From positions 1,612,001-1,676,000 of the forward strand of contig NW_026570228.1 in the NCBI RefSeq assembly GCF_019649055.1: DNA of 64,000 nt, written 5' to 3'. A program made the position numbers and the translations under genes. How positions within the stretch are numbered: position 1 is the first letter of the stretch; each line of letters opens with the position of its first letter. Shown here piece after piece: positions 13,792 through 53,900 of this stretch. Under the pieces are notes generated by a model that did no database searches, had not been told where the DNA came from, and saw only the letters and a program-made list of their open reading frames with translations. The DNA comes from Paramacrobiotus metropolitanus (lineage: Eukaryota; Tardigrada; Eutardigrada; Parachela; Macrobiotidae).

Positions 13792-14689
13792 TCATGTGGA
13801 AGGATCCGTAACCGGACGACGCGAAGGAACCACCGGATGCGGCACAGCTCGGCATTTCATACGGCGACGGCATTTCGACAGGGCGTTGTCCGGTGTCTGC
13901 AGGATATTATGCGACTGCACATGGCCCTACACAACAAAATTCTTCACTCAACGATTTTTCACGGTATTGGCGATTCAATACAAGATTACAATTCACTGAA
14001 CAACTGTTTAAGCAATTTCGACTTAAGCAAAAGCAACGGATCGAGCTTATAAGTGTTTCCTTAAAACATTATCTGATAAACATAAAACTAAGTAAGGCTT
14101 TCCGCAATCCGAACAGTTAAATTCTTTGCGCTTTAAACTGACATAAACATCGTAGAATATGGGCTACGTTTCCGCTCAAATCTCTTTAAATCTCTTTAAG
14201 CGTAGGTCAGGCGATTTTAGATTTTTAGCCTAAAAACCGGCAATTAGTTAAAGGCTAAAAATCTAAAAATCATTTTGTTTCGACACTACATTTTTTATTT
14301 GACCTTACACAAAAACTTTACCGTTCGCGGCATTGTTTGCCCACGCGTCCCGGCAGCTCCTTGGCGATCTCCGACCAGCGTGTACTCAGTCCGCGGCGTT
14401 CCTGGCGCGTCGTGGCGTTGGCGGCGTCGTTCAGGTACTGCTCCACCAGCTGCGCCAGCCGGCGATCCTCCTCCGCGCTCCAGTTGCCCTTGACGATGCA
14501 CATGACGCCGCCGCAACCGGCTTTCTTCCCGGAGCGGCTCGCGCCGGGGTGTTTGGCCGGTGGCGGGGTCACCTGCAGCGGCGACGGCATCTCCAGCATC
14601 TCGTCAATCTCGGCGAAAGATTCAGCACAGGTCACTAGCGACAGCATTAAACGGGGTTTGCCTCGACCGGGTTTCTCCTGACTGCTCAT
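13792..14689 (-). pseudogene. Truncated Myb copy A (exon 1 plus frameshifted C-terminal piece)
   Basis: Exon 1 (14689-14322) is almost identical to exon 1 of the complete Myb gene at 21298-21662. It has an open frame, the same N-terminus apart from one extra codon, the same R2 half (KGNWSAEEDRRLAQLVEQY, ELPGRVGKQCRER) and a good donor (CG/GTAAAG). No R3 exon or middle exons follow. The only other piece is 13926-13792, which matches a possible sixth exon of the complete gene (QTPDNALSKCRRR) but carries a 13-nt deletion that shifts the frame. A transcript could encode at most half a DNA-binding domain. It may instead be used as an alternative first exon by read-through; that would need RNA evidence. 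Confidence 0.75.
14213..14271. repeat. Hairpin beside the Myb remnant
   Basis: Arms GATTTTAGATTTTTAGCC (from 14213) and GGCTAAAAATCTAAAAATC (to about 14271) are near-perfect inverse complements around a 20-nt loop. The outer AGGCTAAAAAT is also present at the equivalent place in copy B (about 21230-21240), but the full hairpin is only in copy A, close to where exons 2-5 are missing. Confidence 0.7.
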
Positions 14690-15795
14690 GGCGGGGAATT
14701 AAGAAAAGGAAAGAAGAAATTAAACATCTTTTCTATGACGTCAGGCGTTTTGTCTTGACACTAATATTATCTGGGGAAAGGAGAAATTAATAACAGCAAT
14801 AGTCGAGCTCGCTGAAACTTGACCCATTCGCAACCATGGGGGCAATCTTCGTCATCCATTGCTTGACTTTGTAGTTTTTCAATGCCGTTCCGATTCTAGG
14901 ATATTTGTAACAGTATAAAATCTGTACAAAAAATACTGCAATCCGCTGCCACATCGCACCCAAACAATGCATCAACAAAAGGTAAACAAAATGCGCCAAA
15001 GTTCAGTTTTTCGAAAATTGACAAAAACTGACCGCGAATATGGACTGGTCACTGATGGTATTATTGTTTTCGGCTGTCTGATGATTCTGATCCCACTTGG
15101 TGTTCACCAATCAACACCCGCAGAAGCACTGCATGCAGGAAGTATACACGCCCTTTTTTTATGTATTTGTCCTGTATTATAGGTATCTTTTTATACATTT
15201 TGAATAGGTAATAATAATTAGCCGCTATACGTAATTATTAAGTGGCATACTTAAATGCTAATTGTGATATTAAATTACCTTTTTACACTGTTACAAAAAG
15301 ATGTTACTCCGTATCCAGTTTAGGTCGTACTCAATATCAAATTTTTAATTTTGCAGTGAGCGCAGTGGACGATTTGTATTAAAAGGCAACTCAACGAAGT
15401 TTGCAATCTGCCCATAAAATATTACTTAATTAGAGGTGCAGCTAAATAATCAAATTTTTACATCATTTTTATCACGGAATAAATGATGAACTAACGTGAG
15501 AACAAAATTTGTTCCTGTTTTTTTATTAAATTTTCCAGGTTAGTCAGAGCGCAGCGTCTTTGATCGGATAAGTGAAATCCAGTTGAAACGTATACAGCCA
15601 TAACACCCTCATATTAATATATTGGAGATTTGTTTATACTGTAACTGCATAAAGACAGCACAAAGCACGCAGATAAAACTGCAAAATAAAGGTAAGCACA
15701 AGGTAGGAAATACATAGAAGTACACAAAGTGTAATTAACTGTAAATTTTTAGCTGCAAACTTGTAGAAGACCAACAGCAGATCGGACAGAACTCA

Positions 15796-18710: not shown

Positions 18711-21662
18711 TTACTGTAAGAAACCAACCTCTTCCGGGCTCAGCGTTCGCCGACTGGAATCCCCGCGCGCCAGCGCCTCACGAATAGGCTGCGGGGTGAC
18801 AATGCTGCTGAGTTTCACCGGCGGCGAGAACATCATGGTCTCCTCCGCCCGGTACTCCGGTAAATTGTCCTTCACGGGCGTCCACAGAGATGTCTCGTTC
18901 AGCGTGGACGACACATGGCTGTAGCAGCGCCGCACCGGCGACATGAAACTGGCCGGATCGTCGTGGCTGGTCAGCAGGCGACCGCCGCCGCTCAGGGGAC
19001 TATAGCCGCACTCGCTCATCGGCACATTGAAGGTGGATGTCTGTTTCAGCGGCGTGGAGGTCACGGCGCGCTGCGTGTAACGTGGTGAACAGTGGAAATC
19101 GCCCATGGCTGCTTTCTGTTGCAAAAGAAAAGAAAAGGAAAAATTAATATAAAACTCGGGAAAAACGGAAAAGATATCGTTTATGCTGTTGGTAGCTCTA
19201 AGCCCATTAGAAAAAAAGCCCACAACGAAACAAACACACCAACCACAAACAACAAAATTAAAACTGTCGAAAAATATAAAGAGACTGACTTTTTTGACTG
19301 AATTTTATCGGTTGAATAAAGTTTTTAGGGTATTTGATGCCTTCCGGTGCAATCTTGAAATTGCCATTGCACTACAATCTCCACTTATTACCAGGGTCAA
19401 AGAAAGGAAAGTACTGAAGCACTTGAACCAAACGTATGTCAAATGAAGACAAAGTAAATCGGACAGGTAATCAGAACCAAAAATTTCCGACACCTTCCAT
19501 ATAAACTGCGCAACGTTTTGCTGTTTAATAATCTACAAAGTATTATTCATGAAAATAAAAAAAATCAACTCCATTGACTTTATTTACAACATGCAAAACC
19601 TACCGACAACAACGGATCGCAGGAATTATTCAGCGTGCGCAACATCTCCTCGCCAATGGTGCCCGGTTCCAGATCTAGCGGACGATAGGGGGAATAGTAA
19701 AAGGGATTCCCGTCGTGATACTGATACTCCATGGGATGCATGGGCGACGCCAGCCCCGCCATGTCGTGCTCCACTTTGATGTAGGGCTCCATGCCGCCGG
19801 CCGGCTGATGGGCCATCGGCTGCGTATACACCGCGTGGACATTGTGCAGGAACTGGTTCTCTTCATCGAATTCCCACTGCTGCTCCACCGGTTCCTGCCA
19901 GGTGCGCTGCTGGACCATGCTGACGCCGGTGGTCGCTGGCGGTGGGCAGTGGCGTTTCTTGGTCTTTTTTGTCTTTTTGACAGGTTTCTTGTGTTCGTGT
20001 AACGGCGGTGCCTACAAATGCGCAACTATAATCGTACGGTAAAAAATAAATTCAAACATCTCACCCATATTTTATTAACGAATCTAAAACAATTAACTAA
20101 TTTTTATTTGTGCTTTTACAAAATAATTAATTCAACCAGTAAAACTGATTTATCAAAGCGCACATCCAAAACTGGATAGGCACGATAACATATGTAATTA
20201 ATTTGCATTAAAGATCTTCCGACGTAAAAACATCAGTGATGCACTCACATGATAGTCACTAAGCAGATCCGGTGAAGAGACACTACGAAAACTGCCCCGT
20301 TCCTTGCGGTTGCAGGGCGTGAAAAACGGGATCTGTTCCAACTCGTCACTGTGATCCTTCAGATACTGTGTCACATGGGGCACCAAGGCTTGCTGGAAGC
20401 AATCATCATCCGCCTCTTCCTCCTAATAAACAAACAACTGCAGAAAAATCAGCCATAACATAAATTACAATATTTTGCTAATTAAACACGCAACGCTGAC
20501 CTTATTCCTAACAGTTAGCGAAAATTTCATTTTTGATCTTCTTACTCTTCTTTATTTTATATCTTCTTCTGCTTTGGTTAGCTCTGATACAGTTTAGCTC
20601 AAAGTTGATAACTTTAAAGTACCAAATTTAAACTAAAATCCAAATTATCAAAATTAAACAAATAGTGAAATTTAAATTCACAATTATTCCGAAAACTCAC
20701 TCCTTCCGGCGGCACGTAGACAGTGGACAAGTACGCATATCCCTGCATCATGAAATCGTAATACGGTTGATCCCGCTGCAGCCGGCGTTTCATATGGCAA
20801 TTCCAGTGGTTCTTGACCCGATTATCCGATCGGCTCTTCAATAACCGCGCAATCCGCGCCCACTGACTGCCCCAGTGCTTCCAGCACACGAAGATGATGA
20901 TCTCCTCGGAGAAACTCCAACGGCCCTTGTTAATGTCCGGTCGCAGGTGGTTGTGCCAGCTATTGACAAACAGACAATAAAAATACAACGGTGCCATCGT
21001 AAAAACATTGTTTACCGGCGCGTAAGCGAACAGGTGCACAGCAACTACCGCTGCGCTGTTTTACACGGGTCAACACAAAACAGTGACCGAGAGAGAAGCT
21101 GATACACCGCCAAATCGAAGACCAGGAGCACGATACACACGCTTGTAGTAATAACGCAAATGAATTTTCAAAAATCAATGTAAAATGCGCAAAGTTCACC
21201 ATAGATTCCACCAGTACAATGTAAAAAAAAAGGCTAAAAATGTATAAAATTTTTATTTCGTTGCCATATTTTTTTGTTTGGACCTTGTAATCCTTACCGT
21301 TCGCGGCATTGTTTGCCCACGCGTCCCGGCAGCTCCTTGGCGATCTCCGACCAGCGTGTACTCAGTCCGCGGCGTTCCTGGCGCGTCGTGGCGTTGGCGG
21401 CGTCGTTCAGGTACTGCTCCACCAGCTGCGCCAGTCGGCGATCCTCCTCCGCGCTCCAGTTGCCCTTGACGATGCACATGACGCCGCCGCGACCGGCTTT
21501 CTTACCGGAGCGGCTCGCGCCAGGGTTTTTGGCCGGTGGCGGGGTCACTTGCAGCGGCGACGGCATCTCCAGCATCTCGTCAATCTCCGCGAAGGATTCA
21601 GCACAGGTCAGCGACAACATTAAACGGGGTTTGCCTCGACCGGGTTTCTTCTGACTGCTCAT
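18711..21662 (-). CDS. Myb-type transcription factor (R2R3 DNA-binding domain)
   Basis: Five exons in phase: 21662-21298, 20959-20701, 20422-20249, 20011-19604 and 19115-18711 (stop), 536 residues. Exon 1 has an acidic leader (ESFAEIDEMLEM) and Myb repeat R2: KGNWSAEEDRRLAQLVEQY, then ELPGRVGKQCRER. The exon junction splits the codon before WHNHL. R2 carries an extra segment of roughly 18 residues (DAANATTRQERRGLS) between helices 1 and 2. R3 follows in exon 2: KGRWSFSEE, WGSQWARIARLL, SRSDNRVKNHWNCHMKRR. R1, present in c-Myb, is missing. The GKQCRERWHNHL and DNRVKNHWN motifs place it with animal Myb proteins, which bind AACNG sites and act in cell-cycle transcription. The C-terminal half has acidic and Ser/Pro tracts and several SP/TP sites (LWTPVKD, MFSPPVK, VTPQP) suitable for proline-directed kinases. 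Confidence 0.88.
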
Positions 21663-21690
21663 GACGGGAAATTAAGAAAAGGAAGAAGAA

Positions 21691-24776: not shown

Positions 24777-24796
24777 TAAAAAAAAAAACAAAAAAA
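24777..24796 (-). terminator. Pol III terminator of tRNA-Gln
   Basis: Immediately 3' of the tRNA on the minus strand is TTTTTTGTTTTTTTTTT, a strong oligo-T RNA polymerase III stop. Confidence 0.85.
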
Positions 24797-24867
24797 GGGC
24801 ATACCGAGAATCGAACTCGGGTCGACGGATTCAGAGTCCGACGTGCTAGCCGCTACACCATACGCCC
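24797..24867 (-). tRNA. tRNA-Gln (anticodon CTG)
   Basis: The minus strand folds as a tRNA. The acceptor stem is GGGCGTA/TATGCCC with one G-U pair. The A-box region is TGGTGTAGCGGCTAGCAC, the anticodon loop CTCTGAA places CTG at positions 34-36, and the T-arm is CCGAG-TTCGATT-CTCGG with a good B-box. The body resembles metazoan tRNA-Gln (TGGTGTAGNGGTTAGCAC, GGACTCTGAATCC). It reads CAG codons. The outermost anticodon-stem pair appears to be U-U. A T-rich terminator (A-run 24777-24796 on the plus strand) follows directly, as for RNA polymerase III. Confidence 0.93.
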
Positions 24868-25799
24868 TGTCGGTCATACTGTCCAAGAAAGTTATGTCGT
24901 ACAAAAGAACTCGTATTATGTGATTCCTAATATTTAATGCGGCTGACACTTGACGTATTGCGTAATAAAATTATAAAAATATGGCGCATATCGCACGCTT
25001 TAAATTACAATACGAGTAACAGAAATAACAGCAACAGAAGTACGAGTACTTATATCAGCTTTTAATCGAGCCATTATCAGGGCTGATTATGCGAATCTTT
25101 CTGTTATCTTGGCTTTATGCAGCATTAAAATTGACGCATACTTATACTAGGAGCACTTCTACCGCATTACCCAAAAAATTACCATAGAAAATAAATGTGT
25201 AGGTTGTGTAGACTTTTACTTTCTATGATTTACTGTAAGTACTGCCCTCACTCCCGTACACGTATTTGGTAGCTATCATTACTATTTACTAAGTTATAAA
25301 AATCAGAAGTATCGTTATCCATGCACGTTCCACCACTACTTCTGATCCCACGGTCGTGACCAAGTTAAATTATGAACATTTCGAAATCCATCATGTTAAA
25401 CTGAACAGCCGGTCGGTTAGGAAACTTTAAACCAGATACTCCCTAACTACCCAACATTTCGTGTTTTATTCCATTTTTTTGGAGTCAATAACACTTCGAA
25501 CTACTGTACAATGTGCGCCACAACGGCAAACATAAGTGACCTGCAAGCCGCGAAAAACCATTTATACTACACAGTATACACACATACCATCCAACAAGGC
25601 TAAGACGATAAAAAAGCACAAATCCAAAAGAATAAAATTAGCAAAAAAAAACCAAAACCCATTTTAAATTGCAAAAGCTAGGAACCATCCCATCACAATC
25701 GATCCTTATTCACCAGCCCGAAGAAAGAGAGAACAAACCGCTCCGCAATCGCGCAACATAAACCATCAAAACGTTAAAAACACACACTCTCCGATTCCA
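24868..25799. other. Spacer between tRNA-Gln and the 3' end of KSR
   Basis: AT-rich with several TACGAGTA/TACTCGTA words. A minus-strand AATAAA (TTTATT near 25465) could serve the KSR transcript. No exon is supported. Confidence 0.4.
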
Positions 25800-28700
25800 T
25801 TAATAGTGTATCGTCTCCTTCACGGGATGATTTCCGTGGACAGGATGACTGGGACTGCGCGCCAGACTCTTTTTCGGCACGCGTTCCAGCATCTGGAACA
25901 GCTCCGGAAATTCCTTCCGGTGCGGCATCTTGGGCGACCAACAGATACTGATCATCTCAATTAATTCCCGCGCCGCCGTCTCATCGATACTCGGCGACAA
26001 TAAATACACCGGCGCATGCACCGGGGTCGGCGGCGTCCCGGGCGTGATGGTCAGGGTCTGCGGCGGGGATCCGGGATGCTTCGAACCCCGTGGCACCCCA
26101 CCCGGGGTGGAGGTGCTCCCGGAACGCGGACCCTGCCCCGTTCGCGAGCGGAATAAACGAAAAATGGGATGCGCCCCGGACGCGATGAGGAACAGCGCTG
26201 AATCCAATGATCCCGGGAGGTTGGGATCGGGAGGCCGCGGGAGCCGGGATCCACCCGGGAAATTCAGGCTGCTGGGCGTGGAGGGCGGCAGGCTGGTGCT
26301 GGGCGTCGAGGGGGTGTCGCTGGAGGGCGTCCCCACCCCGGAATGCACGCTGGAGGTGGACATGCTGTGGACTAGGCGCTGGGCGTTGTTGGCGGAGTAG
26401 AGGAGGGGGAAGGTGCCGGTGCACAGTTCGTACAGCACCGTCCCGAAGGCGTACACGTCGCTGAAGATGCTGAAGGGGACCAGCGGCTCATTGTGGTTGC
26501 TGCTGGCGCGGAACGCGCGCTTTTGATCGCGCGGTGTGCGTAGACGGCGACAGATCTCCGGAGCGAGGTAACAGATCCAGTTTCGCGGGAACCAGAGTAA
26601 ATCGTCACTCCTGAAAGAACGATGATATTACTCTTCCTTCTAATTACATTCGAAACTCTGGCACTCCAAACCATGTCGTCCTGCCATAAGTTTTCATCAG
26701 TCGAAATTAACGTTAAATGGTTTTTACTTCAGAAAAAAACACGACTGATATCATGCAAGATTGTAGTGATTGGGCTATTCGTCAAGTATGATCTTCTTGG
26801 ACTGAATACTGGTTAATCCTTAGAGAAATGTTTACAGTCTCCTAAATGTGATTTTGTTTTTATATATCCCTGCTGCCTATGATCATTTAAAAAGAACCGA
26901 AACTGCAGAATCGATGCTATTTACTTAATACTGCAAAGATTATTTCAAATAACTACGACATCTGTCCGTTTTTTCTGTTACTTAAATTTTAATACAAACC
27001 TTTTCCGCAGTTTTATTCCAATTGGCACCCGGTATTTAATAAAACGAAACGATTTGTAAACAAAATTTTCTAGCTTGCTTTACCTTCCATGTTGCGACAT
27101 CTTGCTGACACTGAACAGCCCATAATCCGTGATGATACACTTTTCGTGCGTGACGAAGATGTTCTTGGATTTCAAATCCTTATGCACAATACCCCGCCGG
27201 TGGAGATAGCCCATGCCCTGGCACACCTGGCTGGCAATGATCAGCAGGCGATTCAGCTGGACTTTGTAGGGTGCCGTGAGGGATTTGCCGCGGGCTTCGT
27301 GGATGAGATCGTGCAGGGTCACCGAGGTGCTGGCGGTGGAGCCACTGGACAGGCCGCGCGACAGCAGACTGGTGATGATGATCTGCTGGTGTCCCATGTG
27401 CGATCGCTTCATACAGGCCCCCATAAACAGCACCAGATTGTCGTGGCGCGTCTTCCGCAATGTCGCTAACTATAAATAAAACATTAATTTTGAGGTATGG
27501 TACCCAAGTAACCCAACGTTATTACAGCAAGCATCAAGAATTATCGTAGTGATGAGGCTACAGACTTGATATTTTCCGGGATTTCAGAGGCGACTGTTAA
27601 TCTATTCTGCATCTTTATCTTTACGATAGAAACATATTTACAATTTTCTAGATAAGAACTTGGAATTTTTCTATATTGTCTATCACCGTTAATTTGAGAG
27701 AGAACTTTTTGCAATGTGTTTTGAAAGCTTTCAGCATAAAGCACAGATGAATCTTTAATCATCATCGACTGAAGATTAAAGATTCAGACCAGTGAAAATA
27801 ATTTCGAACGAGCATCGCAAAACTTACATCTTGTTTAAAGGCCTCATGCACTTCCTCCGCGTCGCTGTACAAATAATCGTCATTGAGGGTTTTTATCGCC
27901 ACATCCCCGTGCCACTTCCCCCGGTACACCTGTCCAAATGTTCCCGGTCCCAATTTCTCGCCAATAATCAACTGCTCATACGGAATGTTCAGCTCACGCA
28001 GGTACAACTGAAAACAGAATTTCAGACTGTCCAAATCATATGTATATAAAACTGTGACGGTTGAGTAAAATTTGTGTGTTCTCCTTAATAAATTCCATTT
28101 CGTAACCCTACCACGCAAGATCGTAGTGATTGGGCTACAGTCCAAGTACGAGAAAGAAGGCATTCAACTCTGTTTTCACAACATGAACAGATTACTAGAA
28201 ACGAACCCACAGTTTTTTCTTCTAGGGTTTACTGATAAAAACACAGGAAAACTAAAAACGCTTTCTCCGTGTTGAGCGAATCATTAACATTCTAAACTTA
28301 ATTGTTTATTTAACAAACCACAATATTTTCAATTTCTATCATTTCGTCTGCTAAACTTACACTCTGCTGCCTGCGCCACGCGATAGGCGACGTCTCCGTA
28401 TGATCCCCGGAGATCTCACTGGAATAACTGGGCTCATTATCATCCTCCACCTCTACGGTCGGCACTTTCAACGCCGTCGTCCCCCCGGCATGCTCCGCTT
28501 CCTCCTGTCCTTCCAACAGGGAAAACCGCCGCGGTCCCTTCTTCTCATCCTTCCCCTTTCCACTACCCTTCACCGCATCCAACAACGCATTCGGCTGCAC
28601 CAACACGGTGGGGAACGTATTGGACGGCTCCGAGGGAAACGAATCCTCCGCTTCCAACCGCACCGACTCCTCCTCTTCCTCCGGCGTCATCACGCGCTGC

Positions 28701-31700
28701 CGGGACTTCACCCCGTCGTACCACTGACTGGCCGTCTTATCCTCCGACCGGCGCCGGCTGAACACCGGGGTTTTCCGCACTTCATGCGCCCCGTCCGGTG
28801 TGTCGGTGGGGCTCTTGGGGACGCTGCCGCTGGCGTCTTTGGTGTGCGGTGCCGGCCAGGGGAAGTGCGATTTAATATGGTCTTTGACGGTTTTCATGAA
28901 GGAGCGGTAGTTGCGCGGATGCACAAAGGAGGTTAAGGCCAGCGGCGAGACGGGTGCCCCGGTGGAGCCGGAGGCGGAGCGACCGTAGGAGATGCTGCCG
29001 GGCGACGCCGGCACCGATGCGGAATTACTGGAGGGTAGACTGCTGCTAGGTGCGCTCAGCGAATCCTGTAAAACAACACTACTGAAAAACTGAAGAAAAA
29101 AAACAGGAAATACAACACGCGCAACAATGCAGAGCGAACTACATGAATGTAACATATGTTTCAAAATCAAAATAGTAACATCTCTAAGTGACACTGAGTT
29201 TTAAAAAAAAATTCCCGACTCCGCCTCTTCCCAATCCTTACATGTACAGTAAAACCTATTCTTTCCGCAATAACGTCCTTTCGGGGGCCAAAAACAAAAA
29301 TCCGTTTTTAATCTAAACACTTTCTCTTTCAGTCAAGAAAACATTTTGGTATTTCTCTTTCAGTTAAGAAAACGCTTATGTATTAAACTATTTCTTATAA
29401 GCAGAAAAATACTTCGTACTAACATATTCAGAAACAGGATTTAATTTGAACAGGATCCAACTGTAAAACTTTCCATGAGAGATGCTACCGGCCATCGTAC
29501 TACGCTATTCGCATAACGTACAGAACGTAGTTACGTAAAACGCAATTACGTACGATTCAGAAAAGTCACAATATAAATAAAATCACCTAACTGTGAAGCA
29601 TGTACCTCCATCTGCTAAATAAAAATTCAGAAAATAATTCCTAAACAAACAAACCTGGGAGTTATTTCCAGGTGACGTCCCGCCACCCGTCGACGACACC
29701 GATACCGTGCGTCCTTCATGCCCTCCCGGACCCTTATCCATCAGCGACGCTCCAGATGGCAACCGAGTCCGCGCTTTCTCCCCGTCCACTCCGCCCTGCT
29801 CGGTGGATAAACTATGGAAACTCTTACTGACTTTCGGCTCATCCTTCGGCAGCACCAGATTATTCCGCTTCCGCCGATCTTTCGGCAGACTGAAACTCCC
29901 ACTAATCCGCCGCACAATGGGTGACTTGAGATCCGGACTCAACGGCGGCGTGCGTACCGGTGTCGCCGGCGATTTCACAATCTCCCGCGCATTTCCGGTG
30001 GACATACTCCGCTGTTTCTTCAACCGGGTCTTCTTCCCGCTCGGACTATCCAGCGGCGGCGGCGTCTTAGAGGCGAACCACTTCAGATTGGCTCGCCACG
30101 TCTTCCCGCCCTCGCGGGCTATCTCCGAGCCTTTGGAAATCGTGGCAAACTTTTTATGCGTCGGCAGTACCACCTCCACATCCGAGGGTTTCCGCTTGGT
30201 GAACTCACTCAGTGTATCATCATCATCCTCCACTTTGACATCCTCCTGAACGGTCGTGGCGTCGATACTCCCGCTGCCCACTCGGAAATCCCGCGACCCG
30301 GGGTTAATCGAATGATAATACTCGCGGACCAATCCGTCTGGTAATCCACACGACGGCGGCATCTTCTCGGCGCAATCCGGGTGGAACCGCAGTTTACAAT
30401 GCCGGCATTTTCGTCCCAAGCCGCGCAGATGCTTCTCACAAAACCCGCACACCGTCTGCGTGAGGAAGAACTGATTCTTAAAGACGTGGTGAATACTGTG
30501 ATGCATCCGCCTGGAATTGTGCACCTTCTCCGGCTGCATCTTCGCCGCTGACGTAATATTACTGTTGCTGCTGTTATTACTACTCCCGCTGTTCCCCGTG
30601 GAATGATTGGCCAACGGCATCCCGGTTTCATCGGAATTCAGACGGTGCCGCAGCGACGACTCCAACGACGAACTTTTCGTGAATTTAACCAGCTCCTTCC
30701 GATGCACCGTCGGCGCCAGGGTCAAATTTGGTTGCGGCGCGTGTGGTTGCGCCGGATTCGTCCCGGTTAACAACAGCGACGGGGTGGAGGAAGACGGACG
30801 GATGATGACATTCTCCCCGGGCGAGGGGAACACCGACTGCGGGGAATGCGTATCCCGCTCATCCACTCCGGCGGCCGCGTACTGCCGTTTCATCGTCGCC
30901 GGACTGGTGTCGTACTGCTGCACTAACTGCAGAATATTGTTGGCACTGGGGAAGACCGAGTTGGCGCAGGATGACGACGCCGACGCCAGATCGGCGAACA
31001 TGGATGCGCCGTCCGCCTCGTCCCCGGTGGTGGTCGCCGTGCTGACCGAGGACATCACCGACGACTGCGACGTCAGGCGGTGCGTGGTCTTGGCCGAGGG
31101 ATTGGCCGGGACGGGATACTGCGACTGGGAGGTGGAGGGGGAGGAGAGAAAGTTGTCATCGGAGGAGAAGGAGGATAACATCGACGGCAGCCGCTGCCCG
31201 GGCGGACGCGGCTCCATCATCCCGTAGCGTTTGTCCACGGCGAGATGGATGGAGCAAAAGGGAACTTGCTGTTGCGGGGATAAAGCATCCCCACCGGATC
31301 CGGGATAATCGGGGACGGGTGGCGCGGCACTCGACGGCCGATACCGCCAACTATCCCAGTATAAGGATTTCACCGATTCCTTCCGCACCAGACTGTTGGG
31401 CGGCGTGGCCGACGAGGAAGAGGAACTGGGAATGGGCATTTGTGCGGAGGGGGTGTGCCCGCTGGGACCGGTGGGTAGGTCCGCGGGGTTGAGGTTGGCC
31501 AGCTCCCGGAGATCACTATCGTCAGCCAATAATCGATCTGTCAAATAATAAATGCAATCAAATCATGCGAACCAAATAACTCGTACTACTACGCAAAAGG
31601 CAACATCATCATTTCATTTTATGCATGAGTAATATAAATAATTGTGGGATTACACATAAAACAGCAGCATTGTATTACTTTTATAACAAACCACACCCCG

Positions 31701-34700
31701 AAGAAAAAATAATTTTTAAAATATTTCCGGCGCGACAAGACAGTGTATTCGCACCGCACCCAAATCTGCCATTATTAAGGCGCCAAAAAATTATTTTAAT
31801 CCGCCTCATTAACATTCCCGCCAGGCACAAATTGACAAACAGCATGCAGATGATCGTCCGCGAACCAAATATTCATGAATCATCAAAACAAACCCACACC
31901 TACTGCCCATCAGCTGTCATGTGGCCAATATAAATATAGAAATATTAACGCCGGTTATTTGTAATTTTTCCCACTTTCAGAACACCTACCGGTATAGATC
32001 CTCAGCAATCGGCAGGCGGTAATCAGACGCCGGACATCTTCCCGTATATGGAAGGGAAGTTTGCCTTTTTCCTTGGTGTTCCCGTTCTCCACACGCAACG
32101 TGGAATCTTTACGGCTGGTGGTGTCCTCCGACGCCGAATCCGGCACGGTCTGGCTATCATCGGAGACGTCCGCCGGGCGGCATGTACATACACCGCTGGA
32201 CGAGACAATCACCGCCTTTAATTTGGATTCCGATGTCTGTAGCAGTTCCTCCACGCTGCCCACTAATTCCATGATTGCCTGTAAGAAACAATACCAACTA
32301 TTGAAAAACCAACCAGAGAATTCACAAAGTTAGGTAAAGAATCAAATCAATCTGGTAGCATTTTTGTAAATTTTAATTCACACAAATTTTCAGTTTGTTT
32401 TAATTTTGATCCTTCTTGATTTGTTTTATTAATTCTATTATTTCTTAACTTTACCGCTTCTAATTTAATGCACACAAGTTTAACACATAAGAAATGGTCA
32501 TAAGTAAAGCTGACAATATTAAAATTATTATCAGATAACACTAATAACACGTATTTGAGTATTTATTCACTATATTAAAATGTGGCGCAGATTCGTTAGA
32601 AGACGGGTCATACTTTTTCCAGCCACCATGCTACGATTCTGATGATAAATTTTTCGTTATCCATGACAGCCTTAAAGGTGCAATGTTAAAAATACTGACA
32701 CCGGAGGCATTAAAACGACCATTAGGAAGCCCATACCCCTGGGAGCATCTAAATTTAAACTCAAGAAACAAATCAACGTAATTCATCCGCTCACACAACA
32801 TCAGGCATATTAAACAACAACCGACTGGCGCACGCACGGCACCATCGACGCACTTAACTAACGTCACCAAATACATTAAAGAATAATCTGCAACATCATA
32901 CAGGCACCACGTGCTCCCGGCAATGCACAATGTGTCCTTTATACCTTTCTTTTCGGTATTCTATAGTGTTTTCTCCGTTTGTTTTGCATTTGCTTGATGA
33001 ATTCCAAAAGGTTTATCCTTCTTAATTCTATTCTTTATTTGACCGAACATATCTGTCAGGATAGACAATTCTGAGCAAAAAGATCCGCACATGTAGTCAA
33101 TTTCAAAAAGAGGTCACATTTTTAAACAGAACGTTACTGTATTACCTTCGGTTAAATGCTTACATGTTACATAGATTTTGTTCTTAAATTTCATGCTTAT
33201 CCACAGTCCACTGCACTACGGCACATCGCTAATTCGAGGTTTGGTCTTTATTGGTCAAATCAATGCGACAATACACAAATTTGAAGAGAAATAAAGAAAC
33301 ATGCTAAACTATAACAGAAAAATTTCGTTCAGCTTATCCAGTCCTTCCATCGTGCCCAGCACTGACGCCGCATTTCCTCGTTGAATTTCTATGGACAAAC
33401 GCTGCCGCAGAAATTCGTGCGAGCGTGCTTCTCCGGTGTGCTGCTGCAGTTTTTTTCCCAGTTCTTTGATGATGGCAATCGCCGACGGTCCCCACGGGCC
33501 CAGTGTTTCAAAAGCGATCGGAACGAATAGGTAGCGGCCGGCCAGATAGGAATATAGCCCTGATTTTCTTAACTCTGCCTGGATGGCGGCCGCACCAGCT
33601 GTGATGGAAGTGGCCTTGACATGCGAAAGCGCAACCGTGTCTACACAGGTCACGTCCCAAGCGAGGCATAATCCGCGTTTCCATGCAAAAGTCGTGCAGC
33701 CATCAGGGCGGCGTTCACTGGTGTGAGAAGTGCCGCGCGGTTCCAGTTTCGCTGGCACACCGGCGGATACTAAGGCTCGGCAGAAGATACTGTTTAAACC
33801 GCCGTGGCGCGGATGTCGACCGGCGGAAAAGGCACATGACAGCCCATGGTGCCCGTAACCACCAACAGGTTTGTGGCACTTGACGCAGTCGTGGGGTTCG
33901 CAGATCGTGGCACCGAGACGGAGGCCGATGCTGATCTTCAGTTCGTCGTCACCCAGTAGATTACCGATGTGAGCGGACGGCAAAGCGTTCAACCAGATGC
34001 CGGCCTCTGGCCTAGACTGGGCAAGCAGGCGCGCTGTGTTGACTTCGTCTCCTTGAAACACCTCCAGGAGAGCCGCAAGAGATACGTTGCATAATGGCAA
34101 GTCCCAGGCCTTTTGAGACGTTTGAAATGCAGCTTCCGGGAGTACAGGTTGGCGGGCTTTTAATTTCCAAGACTCCGAGGCACCAGTAACGTCAACAGCG
34201 GTGCGGTTAGGCAGCAGTGCAGAAAGCAAACCGGATACGGAATGAATCGAAGCCAGGAAGGCTGGAAGGGATAATTCTTCCGACCGGCGGATGCCGATTC
34301 CACCTCTGCTAACCGGTAATGTTGCTTGACGCCAAGGCGGGTAGTCGTTGTGATTGGTCCGTACATTCGACAAATTCTGGAAGCAGGAGCGCATTGCTTC
34401 GTCCAGCTGGTATAGTAATGCAGGATATTTCCATGCATTACAGCACCGCAACATGTAGATAATCTTCGGGGCGCCGAGACAGTTTTTTAGGAGAAACAAC
34501 GCCTGATGGCTAGGTAACAGCTGAAGTCGTTCACACATTAATTTCGAGTTTTCAAAGCAGCATTTCATTTTTCGCTGTCGTTCTTTTTCAGCAAACTACG
34601 CTTATGATACATGCGTGTTGTTTTTACGACTTATTATTTACATATTCAATACGTTTCCGGTATGCTTTCGCATGTTCCATTTCCCGTGCACTTTACAAAA

Positions 34701-44300: not shown

Positions 44301-47300
44301 ACTCAAATGGTGCACATAAAACATTTATGGTACACGGCCATAACCGTATTCATGCGTCATTTATATGGAATTACTGTACAAGCTGTAACGCAGTTTACCG
44401 CAAATGTGAGTTTACGTACGCAGTATGTAGATGATTATGCTTGAGTTACAGGAAAATTGGAAAATGTTAGTCGTGTTTCCAAAATATTGTTCAAAAAAAG
44501 CATAAGTTTTATGTTATTGTCGTTTGCAGTACTTGTTGAGTTAGTCTAGGACCCATAATTAACTGGTGACCTTTGTGAGAAAATTGTGAGAACTATGAAT
44601 ATCGATTCAATGGTCGTAATTTCGCAAGTCAGCTAATCGATTGGTATGTAAGATATAAGTTCTGTGCTGTTTCGATAAGCGATGTTCAGCTGCATTGTTA
44701 TGCAGCCCAGAGATAAAGGGATGCGATAAGAAACATTCCTTTTAGGCACGCATTTTCGAATTATGCCCACAAACGTGCGTGCCGGGTTAAAATGTGTTTA
44801 CAGTTGAGTGTTTTCAGCGCCAGAGCGCTTGATTTGGTATGCTATATTGGAAAGCGTGTTGATAAGCCGCAAGAGTAGAAGCAGACACGTTCTGGCTGAT
44901 AAGAAAGCATCCAGATGTCGATAGATTTCTCCAAATATGCCACTCAAAACCATCCACGGATAATAACCCCAAAGCCACACCACCACAGCCAAGACATTTT
45001 GGAAACGCATGAAATGCTTAAAAGTGTATTTTCCTTTCGCGTCGGCATGTCAAGTGTATGTTTACGAAATGGACCAATGGCTATATTAAAAGGGGGCGTT
45101 GGTCACTATAATAAGGCAAGTGACGCCGGTGGAATGATAACGATAACACGCATTACAAGGAAATTGTCAGCGCAGTCTGATTAGGCTTATCTACCCGCCA
45201 TTATCAAAATTTGGGGCACAAAATTTTTCTCAATCGAAGGCAATATTTTGCAGTGCGTTATTTGCACTAGCGTACAACTCTTTATACGTGAGGTTTATTC
45301 CATTTTCTGCGATCAGAACCTGGGTCCAGAATTTTCAAGGCCAGCCGCGGTCGTGGTCACTTCCTTGTGCGCAGACGGCACTGCTCCCTGTACTGTCCCC
45401 GCGATAATGAATTAGCCAGCAGTCAAAAGCACTCAGAGCCTCTTTTCGCCGTGGATGCCCCAGTGAAAAGATTGTGGACACCGCAAAGAGCGCACGATGA
45501 TCGTTTGAAGAATAGTTAGAGGAGAGGAAAGACGGGCCTCGCGGGCAAATGGCATTGCATGGAGGATTAAAATCGGCTCTGACCGTCGACGCTCTTGATG
45601 CATGCTGATGAGTGGAGTCGCGCCAGCCGCGGTCAGTTGCATATACAGTTGAGAGAGAAGCCACAGCTGCAGCCGTTCTATCTGTCCATCACGCACATAT
45701 ATATACACAGTCCAAATTCCTGCATTTCTTATTTCCACTTTGTTTTGCCAACGATTGGAAAGATCTCTGTCTCTTCAGACCCGCTCGTCGTGATAATATT
45801 TTATGCGCTGCAGATTACAGCTCATGGATTTGAATAAATATTTTTCCATTTTCATCCGCTTAATCGATAGATGTGACGGAACGCGATGAATCGATGATCC
45901 TGTGAAGAATCTACAGTTTATTTACCACTGCCGGAATTCGGTCGACTTTCCTCGACTTTTACGTCAGCGTTTTGCCAGTCTAATTTCCCCTTCTTTCGTT
46001 ATCAATTCGTACGATATTTTTCCGGTCATATTTATTGCGGTCAGACCACTTGAATGGTAACCATTCTGTGATTGTACGCGTGGATGTCAATTATCGTTCA
46101 ACGCGGACAATCGGCCGCATTTTTTTATCAGTGGAGATTAATTGTTGATCTGCACATACGATACATGGCTGTTTAGTTGATTGTTATGGCGGTGATAATG
46201 GTGCCAGGAGAACAGTGAAGGAGTTCCGTGGAAGATTGTTATTGCCAGTATTATATTCTGTCTGGTGGCCGCTGAAGAACGCGCACCGCGCAAAAGAATA
46301 TCCCGGCCTGTGCAGAAAGAAAACTGTCTGGGCATTTTGCAGATCATAAATCGTCCGGCCGCGTTCTACTATCCTCTCGCCAGTGATAATTATTCTTCCT
46401 TTGTGATTGTTCTGCACAGCCACTAAATCACCGAGAATTGCCATTAAAACAACAGCCAGCATCACGTTCAGTGTCCGTAATTAGATTTATGCGCTGCTGA
46501 TTGGGATTTTTAGTGTTGTGGACCGTTGGTCAGCACAAGCCAATATAAACCAGCCTCCTTGAAATGGAAAAGGTACGCCTGGTACAGTATTTAATTTGAT
46601 CGTGCTGCTTTATGATCAATTTCGTTGCAAGTGTTTGATTTATTAATTAGTTAAGCATTTTTACTTAATGTGATTTATTCATATGCACGTTCACGAAAAG
46701 CCCCAGCACCAGAACTCCAGACGGCTTAGTGGGTTTACGGTTTACTTTGCACATATAAACTGTTAAATGAATCATTCAGTGCAATAATTAAATCATTGCA
46801 CATAACTGTACATAAATGCGATTTTACTGCATTAATCTAAGTTCTTAACGATTGCAATTATTAACCACGCAGAGGTTCCAATTTAAGTACTTGAATCTCT
46901 AATTTTTAGCAACAATTAAGCTGACGGTAAATCGTTTCGCTTTAAATTGCGTACGCATCAATCTTTTGAAATAAAACTGCAGTAAGCAGGTAACACGTAT
47001 TGGATGTGATTTGATAACTTCCACTGCCGAAGTTAGAATGTGCGTAATTGGCCTCTATTAAAATATTAATGATGTTATTTGGTATTACAGCATTTTATTA
47101 TGTTTGCGCGATTTTGACTCTTGGTAACTCATTAATATACACTTGCCGTGGTAGTGAAAATTTTGTTACAATTAATCTTTAAAGTTTAAATTATGTACTT
47201 GCAGTTTTGTTATTTTGACCGTTCTATCCAGTTCTGGTGCAGATAGGCTGAGATAGCCAACGGTGTCATAGTGATTAATTTGGTATCTGATTGATTTCAT

Positions 47301-47572: not shown

Positions 47573-50524
47573 ATGCTCCTCATCAGCCTACTGCATCTTC
47601 CCATGCATGCCGCCCAGGCCGAGCAGCCACCGCCGCCCGTTGGCCCGGCCGTGGCCAGCAGTGAAGCGCAGATTATCTTCCGTGAATGGGATCTCCAGTC
47701 GCATCAGACCTGCCAACCGATCCCGGAGAAATCCGGCTGCCGGGTGATGCCCTACAACGCTACCACCACGCCGAATTTGGTGGGGCAGTATGATTCGCGG
47801 GAAGCCGAACAGTCGCTGGACTCGTACAGTCTGCTGGTGAAGAACGGTTGTTCGCCGCATTTGAAGTTTTTCCTGTGTGCTACTTATTTTCCCATGTGCA
47901 CTACGGTGCCGCCGGTGGATACGGTTATTATTATTCCACCATGCAGGTAATTGTCCTAATTGACACCAGACCACAAAGGTCAATATTGTTATACTGTAAA
48001 AACGTAATATTTCCTTGTTCTCGATATCACTTTTATCTCAAACTGAATTCCGGAGTAGAATACGAATAACTTCAGTGTGTGTATGTGTGTGGATCATCGG
48101 TGTTTTATAATATGGCGAATAACAAGAAAAACTTAATAAAACTGTAGTATTTCTTTGTTTTTCTGATTTTTGGAGTCTTCTATGGCTGTTCGAAAAATGC
48201 AGTACGACTATTTTCCTTTTCCGAGTAGTGTCTGCATAACTTTATTTTACACTAACCTTTAGTGGTGCGGTTTAATTTATTTGTTGAAGTACAGAGAGAG
48301 CTGTTGAGACTTTGTTGGTCGTTTTATGAATTACAGTACAAAATTCGTCCATTATTTTTGGATTTGGATGTTGATGTTTCACTACATCTCCAAATTTTGG
48401 TTATTTCTTACTTCTTAGTTAGTGGTTGACTTTCATACCTAAAAGTTCGGAATTCATACTTATTCTCGTCTTCTTACAGGGCGTTATGTTTGGCCGTGCA
48501 AGAGAAATGTCTGCCGGTGATGCAGGAGTTTGGCTACCCGTGGCCGTCCGCGCTGGACTGCGACAAATTCCCGGAAGCCAACCGCAAGGACCAGATGTGC
48601 ATGCCGGGCCCGATTGAAAACGTCCGCCAATCTTCTCCCAAACCCCGCTCCTCCAGACCGCCGCCGACCTCTCCCGCCCCGCCCGCACCTCCCGACAGCC
48701 TCGTCTGTCATCCCCATTCCGCGTTCATTCGCCTAAACGCGTCGCGCGCCTGTGCCTTCGACTGCGACGCCAATTTCATCACCACTGAGGAGGACAAACT
48801 CACCACCGACATTCTCCACGGTGTCGTCGCATCCTTCGCGATCCTCCTGGGAGGGGCGGTCTTCGGGGTGCTGTGCTGTGCGGCCGTCCGTCTCGGTCCG
48901 CTGGAGAAACCGGTTGGCTGGGTGGTGGTGTGTACCATGGTCATGTCGACGGGGTATCTGGTGCGACTGATTGGGGGACGGTTCCTGATGGGCTGCACCA
49001 TGGATGAGGAGCATGGGCGGGCGTACGTGATTGTCGATGGGGTACTGGAGGTGAAAGGCTGCATCGCCGTGTTCATCCTGCTGTACTATTTCGGGATGGC
49101 CGCCAGTCTGTGGTGGCTGGTGATGACGCTGGCCTTCTGGATGTCCTCCGGAAAGGACGGAAAGGTCCGGGAGAATCCGGGCTATATGAAAGTGGCGCAT
49201 CCGGCTGTGTGGCTGACTTCTGCGGCTCCCACCGTTACTGCACTTGTCGGAAAATATGTCGATGCCGGTAAGTTTGCGCATAACTGCAGATTTGAATTTC
49301 TGATCGTTAATGTATGCGGTAACAATAATCATCTTTCCAAGTTCTCAACGCTACATTTCTCTGACACCGGTTACACTGGTACATGGTTGTAGTGTGGTGG
49401 CTGTCATTGGCTGATGATATGTTGTCCATCTCTCCAAAGTGATACATTGGTACAGAATATTATACATACGTGGATGAACCACAGCTAGATTCGACTCGAT
49501 TAGACTGGGCTAATAATCAGAAAAATAACAGTCTCCTTGTATTTTTCGAGAGATTCAGTTTTTGTGTGCTGGGCCGGTTGGTGTTGTTTTTCCGTTTTAC
49601 GCTTATAGACTTTTCTTCACCATTGTTTTTAATCAGGAGCAAATATTAGCTGAACTAGATAAGCGTAAAAATAGCCCATTTCCAGATGCTGAATAGCTAA
49701 CGTTACGCTCTTCGACAGATGAATTATCGGCAACATGCTCCGTGGGCCAGCAGAACCCGCAAGCTCTCCTCTGGCTCCACCTCTTCCCTTTATGTCTTAT
49801 CACGCTCCTGGGCATTGTCGCCCTGACCCGCGGCGCCATCCTGCGCCGGCAGCACGCCCTCTCCGACACCAAAAGCATGAAGACCACCTCCTCCGACACC
49901 GGCACCTGCAGCCTCTCCTCCAAACGCCCATCCCGCCGCCATCACCAACTCAGCGACCACTTCCTCCTGCCGAAATGCGCCGTCTTCTTCCCCTCGGCGG
50001 TTATCGTCATCATACTCTACAGCGTCGAATACTTCCACCGCGACACGTGGACAGCGCCCGGCGTCCACGGCCTGCCGGTGGTGTACTACTTAACGCGGGT
50101 GCTGATGCAGTACGCCTTCGGGATCACACTGTCCATCTGGACGATTATGGCGGCGCTGACGCCGCGGGTCTGTGGGACCGTGGTGAAGAAGCCGCTGCCT
50201 AATCAAGCGGTTCTGCCGCCGCACTACGCCAATGTCCCGCCGTTCCCGCATGTGCCGGACATGAAGGGGGATTTTACGCGGGTGACGTTGTACGAGAGTA
50301 GTTTCCATCCGTCCAGCAATGATTATGCGTCGGTTAATATGCGGGTCCCGGCGCCCACGGAGGTCTCCTATCCGCCCAGTGTGTCGACGGCGTACCATAG
50401 TGTGGGACATCTGCACAATAATAAACTGGCGGCACAGCAGCAGAATCTGTTTGCCACGCAGGATATGGGCAGGAAGTCCATGGTGTCCTCGACGCTCAAA
50501 GACGGGAGACACGATTTCGTATAA
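47573..50524 (+). CDS. Frizzled-family Wnt receptor without a KTxxxW motif
   Basis: Three exons in phase: 47573-47946, 48480-49267 and 49719-50524, 655 residues. The start is the first in-frame ATG; it gives a signal peptide (MLLISLLHLPMHAAQA). The cysteine-rich Wnt-binding domain spans exons 1-2: CQPIPEKSGC, MPYNATTTPN, CSPHLKFFLCATYFPMC, PPC-R-ALCLAVQEKCLPVM, LDCDKFP, MCMPGP. Seven membrane segments follow, including FILLYYFGMAASLWWLVM (TM3) and VDA-DELSATCSVG in the TM4-5 loop, typical of Frizzled. The third loop is long and Ser/Lys-rich. After TM7 (YAFGITLSIWTIMAALTPRV) the expected KTxxxW Dishevelled-binding motif is missing. The tail ends GRHDFV, a possible PDZ ligand. It receives Wnt signals at the plasma membrane; coupling to Dishevelled would need another route. 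A polyadenylation signal AATAAA is at 50731. Confidence 0.93.
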
Positions 50525-50920: not shown

Positions 50921-53900
50921 TTACAAAATAACAGCACTAGTACTGAAATTCTGATTGCAACCCTGCTTATCCCAGAACGTCCGCAAATCCCTGCGCTTCC
51001 CTTTCCCAACATTGGTATGTAATTTTTCACATAATTTACAAAACGCCAACGGTGTTCCCCACGGCACCACAGTGTAGACTTTCCGCCATTCATGGAATGA
51101 ATTATACAGCAGCCGATCGGCTAAGATCCGCTGCAGATACTGCGCCAAATCCGCCGGACTATCAAAATCCAGAGCATTGACAAAGGAACCCGGCGGCGCC
51201 AGGGCCGAATAGTTGGCCCCGCCCATCACGACGGGAATCACCGGATAATCGTGAACCGCCAGGATCTTGAACAGCTTTTCCGTTACATAATCCGGACACA
51301 GGGAATTCTCCAGGGCTAAATAAAAATGGTATGATTTCAGGATGTTGTCGCAGGATGTTGTGGAGTTGTTGTCTTTGCCGCAGTCCAGCTGCCCGCACCG
51401 GCCGTATATGTCCACATCGATGTGGGAGGTCAGCTGGTCGACGTAAGTTTCCCGGTGGGAATGCGACTGGCACCGGCTGACAATCCACGCGATGGGCGCC
51501 AACTTCCGGTAGGCGGCCAACTCGAAAGCACTGCAGTTATTAAAGAAATAATGTGCTATCAATAATTCAAATCAAGAAATAATAAAATTCGTATACCGCT
51601 GGGTTATACATTCGTATTTGTAATATTAATTATTTAATTGATGTAAGAAATACGAATTCATTCAATAAGATTTCAGAAAATTTGACTGCCTAGATTTTTC
51701 TGAATAACAACTAATAAATTAACAGAAAGCCAGAAACTGCATGCTTTCAAAATTTCTTGCTATGTAATGCTAATTTAAAACACCGAATTTCATAGTTTTT
51801 TCGCTAGTACGAAAACAGAACATCATATTCATTACGGACTAAATATCACAGATTTCACTGAAGTGAAAATTAAAGACAATGAATAATGCGGGAGATGTTT
51901 TACAGTATGCACCGAAATTCTAAAATACCTATTACATATGATTTGGAATTTTGGATGATAAGCGCATAATACGGACAGTGGACAAATGTCGTAGCCTAAG
52001 GTCACTACAGGCGATTCCTTCCTGCATGGTGATTCATATAACACACAATAAAGATACAATTAGTTGTAATTTTGTATTTACTACTTACTATTGCATAGTG
52101 TGATTGATTTTTTTCTCGAAATAATCAGGCAATTTTGTTTGCGGCTTGGATCGTTTTGTGGAAAATCCATAAGGAAACAGAATATCGGAATCCAGCCGAT
52201 ACGTCATGGTCCAGTCGAACACACCGTCCAGTAACTGCTCGTCAAAGTAGGAGTATACCGGTGATTCCTTTAGGCAAAACACCCATTTCTGGTCGGCTGA
52301 GCGCGATTTCGGAAGGTGCTCCAAACGGGTGGTTTCCCGCAGTGAGAACAATACCGCGTTGGCTGTCGACAGGAACTTCCGGTCAAAGGTCATGCGGCAG
52401 TTGGGATATGTGCATTTGAAGCGCTGGAACATGTCATTTCCGGTTGTCAGCGAAAAGTCAGGAAATTTGTCCCATAATAAAATTGTGCGCATCGTCAGAG
52501 CATTTGCTTTTGATGATTTCTTTTGACCTAAAAAAATTCACCGAATTATTTTTTGGAGAATTACATATTTTTGAGATAATTAATTAGTACATTTTATTAC
52601 ATACTCAGAATATGTACTTACACACTCTGCTATCGGTAAATCGCTCATCTTACCATAAACCAGAAATTTTTACGCTATTAATTTTAATATTTGTGGACAA
52701 TTACGCGTACCGAATCGTGCGCGGTTAGTTCGCATTTGTTGAATTATTACAATATCACGGATATGTGCAATGATGGCCGTAGTTAATGGAATTATGACTG
52801 TAACGTCGCGATTTGAACTGAAAACGTACATTTCTACTAAACTACCGCGTATTTCAACTGAACAGTGGTACAGAACTACAGATACCGGTTAACTTTTTAT
52901 TTTGAAATAAATACGCTTAAAATAATTAAATATTAAATCAATACGAGTATTGTTCGTTCAGATTATATCCTGATACCGGCATTTAGGGTTTAAACGTACA
53001 CAGTAAGTAATTAAAGTGCGTTTTTATAAAATTAAGACATAGTAGACATTACCTCGATCGTGTAAAACGGCATGGGCCCCGCTTACACAGTTGAGACTCG
53101 TACTATTTGCTAACTTGGATTTTAATATTACTTAATTACTCAAGTAAGTATGTTTTGCACCAGATTTTATGACTGCAGCAAATGCATGTAAACTGTAAAT
53201 CGTACCAAAAATTTGAGCTAAAATACTTAACAAATAAATGGTTTCCGGCTACTGCTGTCTGCTGGGCCCCCAGGCGGCGGTGGTTACGAAACCCAGCGTG
53301 CTCGAAGGCATAACTTCGTGTTTCAGCTTGTTCCAGCTGAAGTCTTTGGTGATCAGTTCATTCAGCTGTCTTTGAGTCAGACAAAATTTATCGGGAAGTC
53401 CTTTTGATGTCATAAATTTATAATCACATTCTTAGTCAGCGTTCCTGAATGTTAATTTTGACTTGAGATATGTAATCAATTATCATCCGTCAACAGAGTT
53501 CCTGGTATTTGTGTAGCGGAGTCTCATTTGGGTTATTATCGAAATAATCGAATCCATTACTACCAGTTCACATCATTTGTTGTCTCGGCTGATTATGCGA
53601 TTACCGATTGTTATAAAAGTGGGGGGATTTCCGGAAAAGATATGACTCTATTTATTTATCATTTATTTTATATTGATCAAGCTTTGTGCTACGACCTGCG
53701 GAATTCCAGAAACATGTATCTCCAACGAGAATTTCTGAGCCAGTTTACGACTTTACGTGATGTGAATCAGTGAGTGTGGTTAACTGGCGACTCTCTGTAC
53801 TGTACCTGCATACTAGCCATGTAAAGTACAGAGAGTCGCCAGAAACGCCATAAAAGTCATCAGGCTGTGGATCTGCTCAGCTTTTTTTGCCAACCCAGAC

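Follow-up and report, generated by a model that had tools for sequence, protein, structure and literature searches.

A Frizzled receptor of the tardigrade Paramacrobiotus metropolitanus has lost conservation in a region-specific manner, on its cytoplasmic face, with the extracellular part kept. When it is compared with the residues that are identical in human FZD1, 3, 4, 5, 7 and 10, it retains 29 of 34 in its extracellular regions and 3 of 21 in the intracellular loops ICL1 and ICL2 (Fisher test, P = 3.6e-7). The KTxxxW motif after the last membrane helix, TM7, is gone as well. The gene lies in a stretch of 64,000 nucleotides (contig NW_026570228.1, positions 1,612,001 to 1,676,000), which was analysed as a whole and is called the window below; all coordinates count from its first nucleotide.

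The Frizzled gene and its surroundings

The gene is on the forward strand and has three exons (47573-47946, 48480-49267 and 49719-50524), separated by introns of 533 and 451 bases that both begin with GT and end with AG, and its product is 655 amino acids long. The features that are needed for the argument are the following.

47573..47946, forward strand: exon 1, with the start ATG, a signal-peptide-like start and the first part of the cysteine-rich domain, CRD (Cys 47-124)
47711..48579, forward strand: Fz cysteine-rich domain, residues 47-158 (PF01392, E = 1.5e-28), split by intron 1 (47947-48479)
48480..49267, forward strand: exon 2, with the end of the CRD, the linker, TM1-TM4, ICL1, ICL2 and the start of ECL2
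48892..48915, forward strand: ICL1, where, by alignment, LGPLEKPV replaces FSYPERPI and Tyr 2x39 is lost
49150..49176, forward strand: core of ICL2, where, by alignment, GKDGKVREN replaces GLKWGHEAI and Trp335 is lost
49719..50524, forward strand: exon 3, with ECL2, TM5, the long ICL3, TM6, ECL3, TM7, the cytoplasmic tail and the stop codon TAA
49841..49963, forward strand: ICL3, 41 amino acids, rich in Ser, Thr and Arg and without a clear match to DKLEKLM (uncertain alignment)
50120..50140, forward strand: end of TM7, GITLSIW, with Trp 7x55 kept (W528)
50153..50170, forward strand: site of the missing KTxxxW, here ALTPRV, by ungapped alignment on GIT....W
50171..50521, forward strand: tail of 117 amino acids, with PPHY (50216-50227), three YxxV and the C-terminal HDFV (50510-50521)

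Exon 1 is taken to start at the first in-frame ATG past the preceding stop, and additional 5' exons are possible; its donor is CAG/GTAATT. Exon 2 has the acceptor TTACAG, the donor CCG/GTAAGT and matches to both Pfam families, Fz and Frizzled, and exon 3 has the acceptor GACAG and a coding-type profile of GC at third codon positions (GC3). The uninterrupted frame described in the initial annotation is confirmed by the spliced frame, which is open over all 655 codons. For residues 400-650 the GC3 is 0.72-0.86, to be compared with a total GC of 0.33 in intron 1, 0.39 in intron 2 and 0.34 in the 3' flank, and because of this difference the tail looks coding.

The CRD carries the ten cysteines that had been reported for it (residues 47, 56, 93, 102, 109, 124, 128, 135, 152 and 165), the tenth of which, Cys165, falls outside the Pfam Fz match. 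Further on, a Frizzled/Smoothened 7TM domain (PF01534, E = 4.2e-34) spans residues 267-500, corresponding to positions 43-260 of the 322 in the profile. The protein thus has both the Fz CRD and the 7TM domain that mark a member of class F; two other marks of this class, YPERPI in ICL1 and KWGxEAI in ICL2, are replaced by PLEKPV and KDGKVREN. A hydropathy scan flagged TM1, TM2, TM3, TM5, TM6 and TM7, together with one stretch of the CRD, and missed TM4, which was located by alignment.

A GT10 fucosyltransferase gene, whose 3' end faces that of the Frizzled gene, occupies 50924-52537 of the reverse strand; it has two or more exons, and Pfam recognises both its N-terminal and its C-terminal part. 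Farther away on the same strand lie ORFs with a C1 domain and pieces of a protein kinase domain (25803-31562), which probably represent a KSR/Raf gene; two near-identical Myb-domain ORFs about 7 kb apart (14321-14698 and 21297-21671), by appearance a recent duplication; an open frame of 428 amino acids without a Pfam match (33312-34595), which we take to resemble a retroelement polyprotein in its C-terminal part; and a tRNA-Gln (CTG) at 24795-24868, the sole RNA found by Rfam and tRNA scans of the window.

The missing motif and the TM6-TM7 region

After TM7, exon 3 reads GITLSIWTIMAALTPRVCGTVVKK, and the human FZD4 counterpart used as reference reads GITSGMWIWSAKTLHTW. When the two are aligned without gaps on GIT....W, the K, T and W of the motif fall on A533, L534 and V538, respectively; gapped alignments move the motif site (one gives MAALTP), and none of them recovers K, T and W together. 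The initial annotation had described KTxxxW as absent after TM7, and this holds for the full 655-residue receptor, with ALTPRV at the expected position. In the six frames between 45 and 54 kb there are zero starts of K[TS]xxxW, and a single antisense KSIDIW is found at 44928, upstream of the gene. When GT donors at 49950-50199 were paired with AG acceptors at distances of up to 4 kb, zero products had K[TS]xxxW within their first 40 amino acids. The further claim that the loss is not a splice artefact therefore stands, in the sense that neither the junctions tried from exon 3 nor any frame near the gene restores the motif.

The TM6-TM7 part of the protein scores -0.5 bits against a TM6-TM7 profile built from five human FZDs, and the piece from TM6 to the tail had no Frizzled match among PDB sequences at E up to 10, its matches being two SMR transporters alone (E 0.7-0.9). 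By sequence, TM6-TM7 is no longer recognisable as Frizzled. This lack of a Frizzled score is what one would cite for a gene-model or assembly artefact, where the true 3' exon with TM6, TM7 and KTxxxW is located elsewhere, and the junction scan covered splicing out of exon 3 and not out of exon 2. We nevertheless regard such an artefact as highly improbable. Among the best eight matches listed for each search of the six frames of the window, a human-FZD profile of TM6-TM7 reached a best E of 0.53 and a TM7-H8 profile a best E of 0.3, both at the level of noise, and the failure of all junctions tried from exon 3 points in the same direction. Moreover, TM5 and TM7 share one open exon with GIT....W, the ECL3 pattern E-x3-R-x2-W is also found in FZD7, and from about 50.9 kb the opposite strand is taken up by the fucosyltransferase gene. 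A single-sequence structure prediction of exon 3 placed the TM5, TM6 and TM7 helices where expected, with a mean pLDDT of 53.8 and a pTM of 0.28, too weak to use. Bacterial/archaeal and viral contig collections, where a relative could be present through chance contamination, gave 49 and 67 pattern stretches, respectively, with zero relatives among them.

Conservation outside and inside the cell

Of the six human receptors that define the invariant residues, FZD1, FZD3 and FZD7 were represented by incomplete sequences and the 7TM part of FZD10 by a provisional one. The linker, ECL3, ICL3, TM6, TM7 and the tail did not enter the Fisher test, because they align uncertainly or have gaps in the available sequence. 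On the outside, the invariant residues kept are 23/27 in the CRD, 1/1 in ECL1 and 5/6 in ECL2; on the inside they are 3/8 in ICL1 and 0/13 in ICL2; and in the membrane they are 0/4 in TM1, 1/5 in TM2, 9/10 in TM3, 3/7 in TM4 and 4/7 in TM5. The count for TM1-5 (17/33) also differs from the extracellular one (P = 0.004), and because these helices have diverged too, part of the signal may reflect a general divergence of the membrane domain. TM3 is thus as well preserved as first described; the broader statement that all Frizzled hallmarks are intact fails on ICL2, ICL1 and TM1 and on the degenerate TM6-TM7. About half of the 13 changes in ICL2 are conservative (L323M, W327F, F328W, L329M, A330S, A331S), and K334D, W335G, E338R and I340N are not.

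The same picture emerges from pairwise identities. Over the CRD, ECL1 and ECL2 the protein is identical to human FZD4 at 77/172 positions (0.45), and human FZD4 itself has identities of 0.33-0.42 with FZD5, 7, 1 and 3 and of 0.53 with FZD10 over these regions. In ICL1 and ICL2 the identity to FZD4 is 6/32 (0.19), as against 22-32 of 32 (0.69-1.00) across 15 human pairs, and when the ICL1+2 identity is divided by the extracellular one, the 15 human pairs give 1.17-2.17 and the six pairs that include the window protein 0.42-0.66. If ICL3 and the first part of the tail are counted as well, the identities to FZD4 are 10/65 for the intracellular parts, 79/187 for the extracellular parts (CRD, ECL1-3) and 43/147 for TM1-7. 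ICL3 is longer than in FZD4 and is identical to it at 3 of 26 aligned positions (uncertain alignment).

Erosion is measured here against human FZDs, and the sole invertebrate control is one provisional fragment of Drosophila Fz. It keeps 16/21 ICL2 positions of FZD4, against 3/21 in the window protein, while the ECL2 matches to FZD4, 12/25 for the fly fragment and 13/25 for the window protein, are nearly alike. Because ICL2 is kept in this single, provisional control, invertebrate distance is unlikely to be the sole cause of the loss.

Several of the altered positions bear on Dishevelled (DVL) binding. W8x54 has become V, Y2x39 has become P and W335 has become G, and T237 and T240 of FZD4, which we take to be T1x50 and T1x53, are both V. 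The QKC next to KTxxxW in FZD4 is absent, and the ICL3 leucines that are important for DEP in FZD4 have no placeable counterpart in the long third loop. Retained are W7x55 and an aromatic residue, W, at position 328 of ICL2. The counterpart of R/K6x32 is F469, H468 or K473 depending on the anchor, as judged by eye in an ambiguous TM6 alignment; a conserved K6x32 by way of K473 was considered and dropped, since anchoring on ECL3 assigns 6x32, again by eye, to residues 468-469.

The literature indicates how much these positions matter. In FZD5, T1x50A, T1x53A and Y2x39A reduce the affinity for DEP, R6x32A and, less so, W7x55A make it very weak, and W8x54A, which lies in KTxxxW, cuts TOPFlash strongly and BRETmax slightly with the DEP affinity unchanged (PMC10387068). 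In FZD4, L420, L430, L433 and W335 are cited as required for DEP binding (PMC12078226), the QKC after KTxxxW is required for DVL recruitment, and a receptor cut at the end of the motif shows no detectable recruitment of DVL2 (PMC4834752). An aromatic residue at 328 is required for Dvl2, and W at the matching site of Fz1 gives wild-type behaviour (PMC4831297). Drosophila Fz2, which lacks KTxxxW, is cited as a robust activator of Wingless-induced transcription (PMC4834752).

Because fly Fz2 is reported to signal without the motif and FZD5 W8x54A keeps its DEP affinity, the loss of KTxxxW alone need not abolish signalling; that it would alter the recruitment of Dishevelled is a reasonable prediction. 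Dishevelled might also still be recruited adequately, through the aromatic residue at 328, parts of ICL3 and the TM pocket, with KTxxxW dispensable in this lineage. The W at 328, the slight BRETmax change and unchanged DEP affinity of FZD5 W8x54A (PMC10387068) and the robust motif-less Fz2 (PMC4834752) are what such a receptor would lead one to expect, but Y2x39, W335, the TM1 Thr pair, W8x54 and QKC are all lost together, W8x54A lowers TOPFlash strongly (PMC10387068), and an FZD4 that ends with the motif recruits DVL2 to no detectable degree (PMC4834752), so that we hold adequate recruitment to be improbable. Nor does the comparison favour the idea, put forward at the outset, that the third loop or the HDFV tail could make up for the loss: ICL3 has the 3/26 identity to FZD4 given above, and HDFV does not fit the C-terminal ES/TxV of the Fz4 class.

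Receptor class, precedents and possible function

The protein probably belongs to the Fz4 class, the alternative being Fz9/10, which we take to be the class of insect Fz3. Its best PDB match is human FZD4 (8wm9) with 219 bits, followed by FZD5 with 154, and the TM part alone gives 99.6 bits for FZD4, 91.7 for FZD5 and 44 for SMO; these matches included no FZD9/10 7TM chain. Smoothened differs more, with at most 60 bits (36-60) for its chains, and human SMO is a class F receptor that, like the window protein, is not known to carry KTxxxW. In a tree, the split that sets the window protein and FZD4 apart from the other receptors has an ultrafast bootstrap of 81%. FZD10 is, however, about as close as FZD4 (CRD identity 0.45 versus 0.46, TM part 0.32 versus 0.31), and our confidence in the Fz4 class is lowered because the TM1-5 identity favours FZD10 (36/105) and FZD5 (35/105) over FZD4 (31/105). 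FZD10, of the class that includes Drosophila Fz3, has two ECL3 cysteines, where the window protein has none.

A legend in PMC4669655 gives the Fz4 signature as 1C-R-0C, which we interpret as the linker Cys, a TM2/ECL1 residue and the ECL3 Cys. Read in this way, the signature is found in the window protein (one linker Cys in LVC, the R in VRL and zero Cys in ECL3), and it fits FZD4, FZD5 and FZD10, as well as FZD7 in its last two terms. Human FZD4 thus shares with the window protein the linker Cys, the VRL Arg and the Cys-free ECL3, but its KTLHTW, YPERPI, KWGHEAI, DKLERLM and C-terminal ETVV are all changed or unrecognisable there. Membership in a class that never carries the motif, named at the outset as a possible objection, seems inapplicable to Fz4, given KTLHTW in human FZD4 and the KTXXXW that every Platynereis Frizzled is reported to carry (PMC4669655).

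The branch of the window protein in the tree is very long, 1.69 substitutions per site, and together with an unrecognisable TM6-TM7 and the 17 of 33 invariant residues kept in TM1-5 this could mean that the gene is decaying, with its membrane and cytoplasmic parts under relaxed constraint ahead of loss. Decay is nonetheless very unlikely, in view of 655 stop-free codons, consensus splice sites, a GC3 that stays coding-type to the end and an extracellular part that is conserved about as between human paralogues.

Frizzleds without the motif, Fz4 included, have already been published, which lowers the surprise of its loss here. According to PMC10560568, Fz4 of Diptera and Lepidoptera lacks KTxxxW through a loss called recent in insect evolution, the effects of an fz4 knockout are taken to be non-cell-autonomous, as a Wnt decoy would lead one to expect, and the developmental role of Fz4 in Drosophila and Tribolium is elusive; another study is cited there for the proposal that Fz4 of butterflies is an activator of signalling in pupal stages. 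The insect Fz4 shares with the window protein the probable Fz4 group and the lost motif, and has a proposed decoy function. In the same source the motif of Fz3 has its Thr replaced by Ser, and Drosophila Fz3, a full 7TM Frizzled and competitive antagonist, is called a Wg decoy. Among other lineages, the motif is missing in FzdB of the ctenophore Mnemiopsis, known from RACE fragments (PMC2959043), and absent or divergent in FzdB of a glass sponge (PMC5684314). KTxxxW is present in the Fasciola Frizzleds (PMC11805424) and in Schistosoma SmFz1 (PMC4050651); Fz1-Fz4 are listed for two tardigrades in PMC8711157, whose main text does not use the term KTxxxW. Comparable wider erosion is not described in these literature passages, and other cases may exist. 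The present protein goes further than the precedents in that its cytoplasmic face is eroded more widely than at one short motif.

The most likely function, about which our confidence is evenly balanced, is that of a decoy or clearance receptor held in the membrane. Wnt or a similar ligand would be bound by the CRD and the outer loops, the usual docking of Dishevelled would fail to follow, and the ligand would be withheld or internalised, with the result that signalling is lowered. On this reading, which is the simplest, the receptor would act as a decoy or in clearance because it binds its ligand and does not recruit Dishevelled in the usual way. The CRD of secreted Frizzled-related proteins binds Wnt without signalling, and these proteins are soluble, whereas the window Frizzled spans the membrane. 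The decoy reading is favoured by a conserved outside, eroded ICL1 and ICL2, several DVL positions changed together, and the precedent of Fz4 in Diptera and Lepidoptera (PMC10560568). It is weakened by the retained aromatic residue at 328 and W7x55, the conservative half of the ICL2 changes, the reported signalling of fly Fz2 without the motif (PMC4834752), the unchanged affinity of FZD5 W8x54A (PMC10387068) and the proposed signalling-activating butterfly Fz4 (cited in PMC10560568). The wider loss of the interface would be a second kind of evidence, one that opens the decoy idea to direct tests and helps to reveal which Frizzled surfaces are kept for Dishevelled.

Instead of a decoy, the receptor could be one in which signalling persists through heterotrimeric G proteins or through a lineage-specific partner whose evolution has kept pace with that of the altered loops and the long tail. 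The 9/10 invariant residues of TM3 and the kept W7x55 would suit this, as would an ICL3 and a tail that are long and coding-looking, the latter with PPHY and three YxxV. Class F receptors present ICL1 and ICL2 to G proteins as well, and it is these loops that are not conserved; R/K6x32 has no firm placement in the ambiguous TM6 alignment, and PPxY and YxxV are not significantly enriched in the tail (P 0.055 and 0.09, respectively, by shuffling). We judge this explanation unlikely, though less so than adequate recruitment of Dishevelled. A narrower version of the decoy reading, which we consider unlikely, would make the protein a dedicated Wnt sink, where selection holds the extracellular half and frees the half that faces Dishevelled, and where a new, long tail with PPxY and YxxV would serve not signalling but a constitutive uptake that depends on AP2 and on ubiquitin ligases with WW domains; its function would then be like that of a membrane-bound sFRP, with an origin independent of the insect losses.
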